This document shows positions 30,255 through 36,984 of a DNA stretch of 64,000 bases, piece after piece. The notes beneath the pieces were generated by a model, which was given only the letters and a program-made list of their open reading frames with translations, did no database searches and was not told the DNA's origin. The DNA is from a virus. The DNA lies in IMG/VR virus record IMGVR_UViG_3300032116_000067, positions 1 through 64,000 of that record. One strand, given 5' to 3'. How positions within the stretch are numbered: the first letter of the stretch is position 1; each line of letters starts with the position of its first letter. The translations under genes and the position numbers were made by a program.

Positions 30255-30610
30255 CTCTCCTACCTCTTAATCCGCTCTATTTGACGCGGATAAGATCGCT
30301 ATATATTCTTTACGGTTGATAAACCGTGACAAGCCTGTGGGGCTACGATGTTGTTCTCTCATATAAGGGTGAGAGTATCAAGCAGAGGTTAATTCCTTTC
30401 TCTGTAATGACACGTTAGTGCAGACTTTAAAACCAGGCAGTCTACTTATTGTACGGTGTTGGGTACGTATGATGAGAGACTTTAAAGTGTGGTAACACAC
30501 ACAGTCCAACTTTGTAGACATAAAACCACTTGTCTACTTTCTCCTAGGTTTGTGGTAAACCTAAAAACATTAGGGTTCTGGTAACACTTGTTTACCGACC
30601 CGGCCCTATC
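30255..30610 (+). ncRNA. Multi-hairpin structured RNA region
   Basis: About 350 nt without a gene but with a series of clean hairpins: TCCGC/GCGGA (30271-30290), ACGGTT/AACCGT (30312-30327), CTCTC/GAGAG (30356-30375), GTAGACA/TGTCTAC (30514-30537) and TAGGTTT/AAACCTA with a GTGGT loop (30545-30563). The density exceeds what chance would suggest, so I read it as a structured RNA, either a long leader of the next gene or a separate noncoding RNA. No known RNA family is recognised. Confidence 0.4.
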
Positions 30611-31282: not shown

Positions 31283-31658
31283 GTCAGATGTAAATAACCG
31301 CCGGGGAGTTTTTGACCTTTGCACTCTAGGCACAATACGGTTTACATACTTAGCATATAGTGATATATGCTTTGAGGGGGTTTCTGAACGCTAAGCAAAG
31401 TTGTAATGCACCATAACTCACTTCCCAAGGGTGAGCAGTTGTAATGTGTAATGTATTAAGCCAAGTCATGCTTGTATTGAACAGTGTGTTCCACATTAAC
31501 AAGGTAATACCTTGAGTCTTTACCATTACAACTGAGTGCAGAGGGACCTCTTAACCCGTGAAGAGTATTACACGGGAGTTAATCCGAGTAACCCGAAAAA
31601 GGGTGCATCTATAGTCCTCGGAGAGTCAGAACAGGGATGTTGGGTCTGACACTTTTTT
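31283..31658 (+). ncRNA. Structured RNA, copy 1 of a two-copy motif
   Basis: No gene for about 400 nt. Stems seen: ATGTAAA/TTTACAT, GCATAT/ATATGC, a long-range 10-bp stem AGTTGTAATG (31437-31446) with CATTACAACT (31524-31533), CCCGTG/CACGGG within TTAA/TTAA, ACCC/GGGT, and a terminal GTCAGA/TCTGAC hairpin followed by TTTTTT (31625-31658). The motif CCCAAGGGTGAGC before and TGAGTGCAGAGGG after the long stem recurs at 32.14-32.30 kb. It lies upstream of the MazG-like gene. Confidence 0.55.
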
Positions 31659-31682
31659 CTTTCTCAATCAATTCATCACTAT

Positions 31683-31895
31683 ATGGGATTACACAAAGAT
31701 GAGGGAGAACCTGCCGCGGCTTTAGCCGAAGAGTGCGGTGAAGTAATCCAGATCATCTCCAAGCTCTATAGGTTTGGAGGTAACTGGAACGAAGTACCAC
31801 CTGGTAAGACCCATACCAGGTTTGAGGAGTTAGAGAGTGAAATGCAAGATCTGCTCTATCAGTGGGAAAGATTGAAGAAGGAACGCTCTCAGTAG
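31683..31895 (+). CDS. MazG-like nucleotide pyrophosphohydrolase
   Basis: 70 residues. The all-alpha NTP-PPase signature is LAEECGEVIQIISKLYRFG (EExGE), with the second acidic helix at RFEELESEMQDLLYQWERL. This is a short single-domain MazG-like protein; by family it hydrolyses NTPs or alarmone-like nucleotides. The TAG stop lies within the terminator hairpin. Confidence 0.75.
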   Translation: MGLHKDEGEPAAALAEECGEVIQIISKLYRFGGNWNEVPPGKTHTRFEELESEMQDLLYQWERLKKERSQ

Positions 31896-31907
31896 CGTTC
31901 TTTCTTT
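31881..31907 (+). terminator. Terminator overlapping the MazG-like stop codon
   Basis: GAACGCT/AGCGTTC with a 6-nt loop, followed by TTTCTTT. The TAG stop at 31893-31895 is part of the hairpin. Confidence 0.8.
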
Positions 31908-31924
31908 ATTTTTGTGTTTTTAAC

Positions 31925-32379
31925 ACACCATTCTCACGTGGACATGAAGACTTCTCATGATGAATTCAAGCAGGATAATCTCTCACAGTAATGTGTATGG
32001 AGATAGAATGTGTCCTAGTTCGGTACAGTTGAAAGACTGTATTAAGCGGATAATTTGTCTAAAAGATGTGAAACCACACTGATTAGAAAATTGGTAGAAA
32101 TACCAAAGGGAAATGTCAAACCACATGCCCTAATCAGTTTCCCAAGAGTGAGCAGTTGTAATACCGATGTGAAAATTGAAACATATTTTCTTTGAGGTGT
32201 AACCTATGGAAAAATAGAAGTAAAAACACTAAGAGTAGTTTCACAAACTATGCTCAAAACGTGTATAATATGTCTATGTATTACAACTGAGTGTGGAGGG
32301 GAAAACCAGAGTAGTAGAGCGCAAAACCTGGGTGAGCCTTACGGTTCATGAAAAACGCACAGGTCTCTGGTCTTTTTTG
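31925..32379 (+). ncRNA. Structured RNA, copy 2 of a two-copy motif
   Basis: Noncoding. It has hairpins ACAGT/ACTGT, TTGGT/ATACCAA and CTGATTAG/CTAATCAG. The shared motif is CCCAAGAGTGAGC, then AGTTGTAATAC (32154-32164) pairing with GTATTACAACT (32278-32288), then TGAGTGTGGAGGG. Compared with copy 1 the inner pair is A-T instead of G-C, with an added C-G pair: a compensatory change. It ends in a nested terminator (ACCAGAG/CTCTGGT, ACCTG/CAGGT, TGAGCC/GGTTCA) with TTTTTT at 32305-32379. Confidence 0.55.
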
Positions 32380-32400: not shown

Positions 32401-32544
32401 CTAGCACAGTGTGTTGTCCGAACATCTCACCACAGGACTATACTGTTAAAAAACCAGCCACTGTATCCCACAGGGAGGCGTGGAGGTGTAGGGCTTCAAC
32501 CTGCCAAACGGTACAGAGGGGGTAACCAGTCCTCTCTTTTTTTT
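32401..32544 (+). ncRNA. Short structured leader ending in a terminator
   Basis: A noncoding 140-nt piece with a CCACAGG ... CCCACAGG repeat, a GGAGGTG...CCTGCC pairing, and a final hairpin AGAGG/CCTCT followed by a run of T (32515-32544). It precedes the next small gene by about 25 nt. Confidence 0.4.
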
Positions 32545-32566
32545 GTCACCAATCAATCATCATCAT

Positions 32567-35868: not shown

Positions 35869-35955
35869 GGTCAGGTGGTGGAGCTGGTTTAACACAAGGT
35901 AAGACACCTTTTACAGGTGGCTCACCTATCACAGGTTCGAATCCTGTCCTGACTA
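35869..35955 (+). tRNA. tRNA-like element A, atypical anticodon arm
   Basis: Acceptor GGTCAGG/CCTGACT, D-arm GTG/CAC with a GG-containing loop, T-arm ACAGG-TTCGAAT-CCTGT, discriminator A: 87 nt, class II length. The centre does not give a standard 7-nt anticodon loop. AAGGT/ACCTT closes a 5-nt loop and AGGTG/CACCT forms a variable-arm-like hairpin. The alternative CACC-TTTTACA-GGTG would expose UUA. Probably a degenerate or specialised tRNA-like RNA. Confidence 0.55.
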
Positions 35956-35970
35956 CTTAAAATTAAGATT

Positions 35971-36228
35971 ATGAAAAATAAAAAAGAACTTGTTGATGTA
36001 CTCGAAAAAAGTGGGGTAAAAATAATTAAAACAGGTAAGAACTACGATTGGGAAGAAATATATTTTGATAATAGCAACTTAACTGTTGAAAAATTACAAA
36101 CAATAAGTTTAATTGTTAAAAATTTCTTTTATGTAGAAGATAAATTTACACACAATCTACCAAAGTTTATTGGAAAAGATGGTTATGTATGTTTAATTTT
36201 TGATAAAAAATTAGTAACTGCAATTTAA
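35971..36228 (+). CDS. AT-rich cassette protein 1, unknown
   Basis: 85 residues (LVDVLEKSGVKIIKTGKNYD; FDNSNLTVEKLQTISLIVKN), a small alpha/beta fold. Codons are strongly A/T-ending, unlike surrounding phage genes. It starts 16 bp after tRNA-like element A and ends 10 bp before a duplicated tRNA 3' end, as if inserted as a cassette. Function unknown. Confidence 0.6.
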   Translation: MKNKKELVDVLEKSGVKIIKTGKNYDWEEIYFDNSNLTVEKLQTISLIVKNFFYVEDKFTHNLPKFIGKDGYVCLIFDKKLVTAI

Positions 36229-36237
36229 AATATCAAT

Positions 36238-36262
36238 ACAGGTTCGAATCCTGTTCTGACTA
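36238..36262 (+). pseudogene. tRNA 3'-half fragment
   Basis: ACAGG-TTCGAAT-CCTGT followed by TCTGACT and A: a complete T-arm and acceptor 3' strand without any recognisable D-arm or anticodon arm upstream. It is a partial tRNA, probably an attachment-site copy. Confidence 0.65.
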
Positions 36263-36285
36263 CTAAAACATTAAAAATAAATAAA

Positions 36286-36492: not shown

Positions 36493-36617
36493 AGTCAGGT
36501 GGCGAAATTGGTAGACGCGAGTGGTGTGTTAAATGTGGGAATAGACATAATCCCTAACCCTATAAAAAGGGCTGACCGCTTGTCTCTTAGTTGCAGGTTC
36601 GATTCCTGTCCTGACTG
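36493..36617 (+). tRNA. tRNA-like element B with 44-nt anticodon-loop insertion
   Basis: Acceptor AGTCAGG/CCTGACT (perfect), D-arm GCG-AAATTGGTAGA-CGC (GGTAGA, Leu-like), T-arm GCAGG-TTCGATT-CCTGT, discriminator G. The anticodon stem AGTGG (36520-36524) pairs with CCGCT (36576-36580), but the loop is 51 nt instead of 7. The insertion itself holds CCCT/AGGG and GGG/CCC pairings. Bacterial tRNA introns are normally group I and longer, so this small insertion is unusual. Confidence 0.6.
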
Positions 36618-36828: not shown

Positions 36829-36968
36829 AGTCAGGTGGCGGAATTAGTAGACGCACAATGGGATGCACGGTGTGACTCCGTGGAAGTGCTCCTCAAAAGG
36901 TTGAGCTACCCGTTGTAACAAAGACCCGAAGTACAAGGGTTGTGCCGGGGCAGAACCGGCCTTGACTA
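36829..36968 (+). tRNA. tRNA-like element C with anticodon-loop insertion
   Basis: Acceptor AGTCAGG/CTTGACT (one G-U), D-arm GCG-GAATTAGTAGA-CGC, anticodon stem CAATG (36856-36860) with CGTTG (36911-36915) around a 50-nt loop, variable arm ACCC/GGGT, and T-stem GCCGG/CCGGC with a divergent loop (GGCAGAA rather than TTCGAAT). Insert length nearly equals that of element B. The insertion contains CACGG/CCGTG with a 7-nt loop. The divergent T-loop suggests decay or a new role. Confidence 0.5.
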
Positions 36969-36984
36969 CACTATCTCCTTTTTA

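Follow-up and report, generated by a model that had tools for sequence, protein, structure and literature searches.

Two segments of a phage RNA island carry the same conserved letters around stems that differ in sequence; what RNA they encode, and what it does there, is the question raised by this locus. The window that was analyzed, bases 1–64000 (64,000 nt) of a virus record of 100,264 bases in all, encodes a terminase with ~25% identity to the terminases of crAss-like phages and of other phages of Bacteroidota. The region at ~29.3–37.6 kb of the window contains short ORFs, tRNAs, non-coding RNA, and one hatchet ribozyme, which is located 966 bases upstream of copy 1 on the same strand. When the window was scanned with Rfam at gathering and relaxed thresholds, the cut-off was reached by the hatchet and tRNA only. 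The original prediction of a two-copy RNA motif was re-inspected in the sequence, and both boxes and both stems were located where claimed: CCCAAGGGTGAGC at 31424–31436 and GAGTGCAGAGGG ending at 31545 in copy 1, and CCCAAGAGTGAGC at 32141–32153 and GAGTGTGGAGGG ending at 32300 in copy 2. Pairing is preserved where the stems differ: copy 2 has A-U in place of the last G-C pair of copy 1, plus one extra pair.

Positions 36230–36265 of the window repeat the 3′ part (ACAGGTTCGAATCCTGTTCTGACTAC) of the tRNA at 35869–35956, after a small ORF (35971–36228), an arrangement that looks like a cassette insertion at the tRNA. Two tRNA-like sequences with extra arms or inserts are present at 36493–36617 (~125 nt) and ~36830–36970 (~140 nt); the former is a tRNA by Rfam (37 bits), and neither was detected by ARAGORN.

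Two scans of IMG/VR viral-contig DNA with both boxes combined in one pattern gave 89 (short loops) and 82 (longer loops) matching stretches, and a scan fixing the 5′ part alone gave at least 119 matches. A comparable pattern produced one match in 257 Gb of genome sequence from bacteria and archaea, a chance match in an unrelated HEARO locus (L237), and the two-copy pattern is therefore not due to chance. With a relaxed rule applied to the fetched loci, 209 instances were obtained, 183 of them distinct; the family thus comprises at least 183 distinct members, found in uncultured phages related to crAss-like phages. No homologue was found at the DNA level among 50,697 catalogued phage records. 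A terminase related to that of the window is encoded by 43 of 50 motif-bearing records, with identities of 53–68% for 20 of them and ~23–33% for the rest, so the element is spread over a broad phage group and not a single clone. No published description of phage twister variants was found in a literature search that left many journals uncovered, and the family is apparently undescribed so far.

Nearly all matches from pattern scans for P2 variants that lack the GUGCA form were chance matches in coding DNA. A link to HEARO and the IscB omega RNA by way of L237 was dropped, as the letters that match belong to inserts or unaligned loops when the locus is aligned to the HEARO model (RF02033). This model has no match at the motif, and the combination of an RF02033 match with an adjacent IscB-like ORF was not found.

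The fold is described with helix names taken from the twister nomenclature, and the coordinates for both copies are collected in the table. The elements follow in the order P1, UAA, P2, a P4 hairpin with the loop UUCCCAAGG, P5, P2′, GAGGG, and P1′. P5 lies directly 3′ of P4, is free in its arm sequences and in the length and sequence of its loop, and is separated from P2′ by a single A. The GGG of GAGGG pairs with the CCC of the P4 loop to form T1.

Table. Coordinates of the RNA features in the window
Feature	Position	Strand	Basis or remark
Hatchet ribozyme (RF02678)	30306–30438	+	78.1 bits vs cut-off of 51
Upstream RNA module of copy 1	31283–31403 (approximate start)	+	flank homology
Copy 1, whole conserved element	31404–31545	+	R1 model match and homologues
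Copy 1 UAA	31404–31406	+	
Copy 1 P2	31407–31411 with 31536–31540	+	
Copy 1 P4	31417–31421 with 31431–31435	+	
Copy 1 P4 loop, UUCCCAAGG	31422–31430	+	
Copy 1 T1	31424–31426 with 31543–31545	+	
Copy 1 P5	31436–31446 with 31524–31534	+	
Copy 1 GAGGG	31541–31545	+	
Copy 2, extended form	31915–32304	+	sequence; extended-form search; R1 match
Copy 2 P1	31915–31918 with 32301–32304	+	
Copy 2 UAA	31919–31921	+	true 5′ end, not the CCCAAG box
Copy 2 P2, CACAC/GUGUG	31922–31926 with 32291–32295	+	
Copy 2 P4, CUCAC/GUGAG	31931–31935 with 32148–32152	+	
Copy 2 inserted domain	31936–32138	+	same insert in ~23 extended copies
Copy 2 P4 loop	32139–32147	+	
Copy 2 T1	32141–32143 with 32298–32300	+	
Copy 2 P5	32153–32164 with 32278–32289	+	
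RNA module ending in hairpin and U-tract	32442–32547	+	BLAST to L061 flank

P2 is UGCAC/GUGCA in its usual form and appears in the compensated forms UGUAC/GUACA, UGCGU/ACGCA, UGCAU/AUGCA, and UGUGU/ACACA, and as CACAC/GUGUG in the extended copies; double changes are found in three of its five pairs. The two arms of P4 pair at five of five positions in 182 of 188 matches, with 18 distinct arm pairs, in a search that left the 3′ arm unconstrained. A search blind to T1 gave eight copies with non-standard T1 letters. Five of these are fully complementary (one TCC/GGA, three CAC/GTG, and one CCA/TGG) and three have one or more broken pairs. All three pairs of T1 covary, and the variants GAGGA, GAGTG, and GATGG of GAGGG were observed without being forced. 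The bases flush outside UAA and GAGGG pair as P1 with a mean run of 2.48 versus 1.27 (0 of 1000 shuffles), in the flush (0/0) register only; P1 is lacking in part of the family, including many single copies, copy 1 among them. UAA is present in 173 of 183 copies and AA in ~181, letters that are partly fixed by the search patterns, and the position of GAGGG flush 3′ of P2′ is invariant by search design.

In an alignment of 24 sequences, 99.2% of the cells are paired, and the covariation score is 0.648, compared with 0.201 after shuffling and 0.05–0.15 with slid partners. A second covariation alignment contained 28 sequences. The counts from both alignments lean toward structure, as P2 and P4 pairing was demanded by the relaxed rule, and invariant columns inside the search patterns prove nothing because most instances were gathered by pattern; the argument is therefore carried by the unconstrained tests of P4, T1, and P1. 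Homologues with covariation were looked for and found in the hundreds, with covariation in P2, P4, P5, T1, and the outer P1, and the structured RNA with a compensatory change that had been proposed for this locus is strongly supported. The boxes stand as originally placed. The proposed starts were revised: both copies begin further 5′, at their UAA, and copy 2 contains an insert of ~200 nt.

Copy 1 was matched at 31399–31550 by covariance model R1 (73 bits, E = 3e-18), which was built without any sequence from the window. The same model detects the 3′ part of copy 2 (25.5 bits, E = 6.7e-5), and the ends of copy 2 were joined through P2 and P4 pairing in the extended-form search. Its P2, compared with UGCAC/GUGCA in copy 1, adds two further compensated pairs between the window copies. 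The insert of copy 2 sits inside one helix, between the 5′ arm of P4 and the P4 loop. It begins with GUGG (31936–31939) and continues to CCAC (32074–32077), which is followed by a hairpin formed by 32078–32086 and 32130–32138. The insert in the ~23 extended copies reads GTGGATATAAAGACTTCTT...AAGATGTGAAACCAC with a second stem. Its letters GUGGAUAUAAAGACUUCUU...AAGAUGUGAAACCAC are near-invariant, and the second hairpin covaries (copy 2 of the window, L025, L057, L066, L098, and others); L035 and L103 have a shortened version. It is conceivable, if doubtful, that the extended copies, including copy 2 of the window, are natural ligand-gated ribozymes in which the inserted domain (GUGGAUAUAAAGACUUCUU...AAGAUGUGAAACCAC and the second hairpin), placed between the P4 arm and the catalytic loop, would sense a metabolite or protein and turn cleavage on or off.

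A switch had also been proposed for copy 1, in which an upstream copy of AGTTGTAATG competes for the same partner. The upstream AGTTGTAATG at 31399–31408 overlaps UAAUG, the conserved 5′ end of the element itself, and the bases 5′ of UAA are not conserved across the homologues. As AGTTGTAATG is not conserved beyond UAAUG in other copies and its partner is the freely varying P5 stem, the switch is unsupported; such competition may occur in copy 1 alone but is not a feature of the family.

The anatomy of the motif is that of a twister ribozyme in several respects: UAA flush 5′ of P2, GAGGG flush 3′ of P2′, P2 itself, P4 with its CCCAAG loop, T1, and P1. In the Rfam consensus for twister-P1, UAA likewise directly abuts P2, GAGGG directly abuts P2′, and the P4 loop contains CCCAAG. 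The catalytic G of twister is taken here, from the O. sativa sequence, to be the first G of GAGGG, which fits the published numbering. The junction of the motif consists of CA plus 1–4 nt and a single A, and no covarying pair was found for T2. In published structures the twister is cut at the U-A of UAA, a conserved G at the base of P2 is catalytic, T1 is formed by L1 and L4, and P1 is dispensable (PMC6154101). The corresponding cut is predicted between U31404 and A31405 in copy 1 and between U31919 and A31920 in copy 2. By its anatomy, the motif looks like a divergent self-cleaving twister.

The twister-P1 model RF03160 matches the shortest copy, L049, end to end and ranks first among 4227 families, with 20.2 bits (E = 0.033) against a cut-off of 67.2 bits. 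It was the only match among five copies tested; both window copies, L057, and L179 were not matched even at E = 10, and no motif was matched when the model was run on 50 whole records. A permuted twister was considered and set aside, the parts here being in the normal type-P1 order; a published search for permuted twisters found none. With the Twister-P5 model, the same number of records (50) gave no match at the cut-off and none at the motif, and the best match (L307) is apparently in coding DNA. A scan of viral contigs with the canonical twister pattern yielded one stretch. Two phage twisters, at L305 1501–1564 (minus strand) and L306 1501–1569 (plus strand), score 48–49 bits, below the Rfam cut-off of 67, and their T1 is changed to letters of the UCC.A/U.GG type (GUCCAAAGCC with GAUGG). 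Phage twisters of this sort probably go undetected at the Rfam threshold.

The surroundings of the motif bear on its function. Two different RNA modules have homologous copies, at up to 92% identity, both upstream of hatchets and upstream of the motif. Module one is shared by the hatchet loci L298 and L302 with the motif loci L039, L179, L088, and the window (best E = 3e-41), and module two by L301 with L142 and L040 (best E = 5e-45). The module of copy 1 precedes the motif in L039, L179, and L088, and 59 nt of it match the flank preceding the hatchet in L298 (83%, E = 1.5e-13) and in L302. The homology runs as far as the start of the hatchet and stops short of UAA by a few bases, and nothing is shared between the downstream flanks. 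Across the loci, what comes after such a module is the motif at 220 sites, a hatchet at 5, a U-tract at 35, and something else at 67, the last number including motif copies overlooked by the detection rule. The U-tract exchange is represented in the window by the module at 32442–32547, of which 98 nt (82.7%, E = 4e-18) match the upstream flank of L061, where the motif comes next and not the U-tract.

A hatchet is present in 6 of 50 motif-bearing records and lies 0.8–1.6 kb upstream of the motif on the same strand in the window and the five records measured. Bona fide twisters occur in two motif-bearing islands: in G040 a hatchet, a true twister, and the motif are within 1.6 kb on one strand, and in G038 a twister is ~110–135 nt ahead of the motif. 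The upstream flanks of the two true twisters have no homology to those of the motif, so interchange is demonstrated for the hatchet only, on the basis of two modules and a small number of independent hatchet lineages. In 59% of the copies, compared with 33% of shuffles, a stable hairpin closes no more than 8 nt upstream of UAA; a P0 hairpin similarly precedes ~90% of hatchets (PMC4604424).

The modules upstream are non-coding RNAs that recur in their own right and are shared among phages; those searched gave no Rfam match at the cut-off. Relatives of the motif that seem decayed or reduced were seen in L155, the downstream flank of L091, and L065 (minus strand). They consist of UAAUGCAC and the P5 stem without P4, or have lost both CCC and GGG, and they follow modules that elsewhere precede the intact motif.

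The reason for the positions of bacterial and phage self-cleaving ribozymes has been described as still unknown (PMC10085705). That the same RNAs upstream have at their end a hatchet in some phages and the motif or a hairpin and U-tract in others points to one job, the making of 3′ ends inside long transcripts. The motif is quite probably a self-cleaving twister variant that cuts between the U and AA of UAA and creates the 3′ end of the RNA that precedes it. The functional support is positional. Fold, covariation, spread of the family, and interchange with hatchets and U-tracts are shown by the data; it is catalysis, cut site, and purpose that we infer. The RNA would fold into P1, P2, P4, and P5, and pairing of the CCC in the P4 loop with the GGG of GAGGG would gather the UAA strand, the AAG of the loop, and the G of GAGGG as in twister. 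Self-cleavage between U and A at the 5′ edge of the element would release the non-coding RNA upstream and give it a defined 3′ end a few bases beyond its terminal hairpin, about where a terminator would put it, while transcription continues. The downstream transcript would retain the ribozyme body at its 5′ end, often with an ORF start 25–50 nt later. A ribozyme (the motif, a hatchet, or perhaps a true twister) and a hairpin with a U-tract would then be alternative 3′-end makers for small RNAs in tandem islands, and their exchanges provide many natural swaps for probing this role.

Other readings of the motif were weighed against the same observations. The motif might represent a new ribozyme class of its own, which arrived at UAA, CCCAAG, and GAGGG by convergence and which self-cleaves and makes 3′ ends with an active site other than that of twister and a cut perhaps elsewhere. 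The lack of T2 and of conserved L2 letters, the obligatory P5 three-way junction, and the weak or absent covariance-model score agree with such a class, but UAA, CCCAAG, GAGGG, T1, and P1 are all in twister order and register, and we consider it unlikely. Exonuclease-resistant RNAs have a layout of a three-way junction plus a pseudoknot, as found here, and the motif often lies 25–50 nt ahead of an ORF; it could thus be a non-catalytic structured element that acts as a barrier to an exonuclease or tags the RNA for a nuclease and so sets 3′ or 5′ ends. We give this reading a low probability, since the motif replaces the self-cleaving hatchet after the same modules and bears the twister letters.

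A regulator of transcription or translation, either a put-like antitermination RNA or a riboswitch leader, would suit the frequent occurrence of the motif in leaders, the inserted conserved domain of the extended copies, and the strand of the next ORF of at least 100 aa (the same in 144 cases, opposite in 3). Many copies are nonetheless ahead of tRNAs or other non-coding RNAs, no common downstream sequence or expression platform is found, and the motif swaps with the hatchet, making a regulator very improbable. Identical P5 loops with different flanks (L027, L031, and L040; L017, L038, and L045) and a stem without P4 near L008 and L088 would be expected of a mobile DNA element ending in the inverted repeat AGTTGTAAT/ATTACAACT. 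The shuffling is explicable by recombination between conserved stretches, however, and the strong strand bias, the free P5 arms, and the constant presence of the flanking boxes all weigh against mobility; it is largely ruled out by the covariation of P4 and T1, and hardly any credence is left for it.

The theta (HDV-like) ribozymes of gut phages resemble the motif in lying beside small RNAs (tRNAs), mostly in non-coding DNA and in the sense of neighboring genes (PMC10879173). They differ from it in their tRNA association and HDV-like fold, no such fold being found at the motif. The hatchet (RF02678) shares with the motif its place after the same modules, its strand, its islands, and an upstream hairpin, whereas its sequence and fold are unrelated; RF02678 matches elsewhere in the island but not at the motif. 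With type P1 twisters (RF03160), the motif has in common the order P1-UAA-P2-P4-P2′-GAGGG-P1′, the CCCAAG loop, and T1. Twister has T2 and conserved L2 letters (GCC, UAAA), both of which are missing from the motif, and P5 is found in every copy of the motif but in only ~1% of twisters (PMC6154101). P1 of the motif is short or absent, and its extended form has a domain inserted in P4. Because letters, order, and register are the same but T2, the L2 letters, and the model score are wanting, the motif is filed as a divergent twister variant; by the Rfam criterion it is no member. As a putative form of twister without T2, it helps to ask what the twister active site minimally needs.
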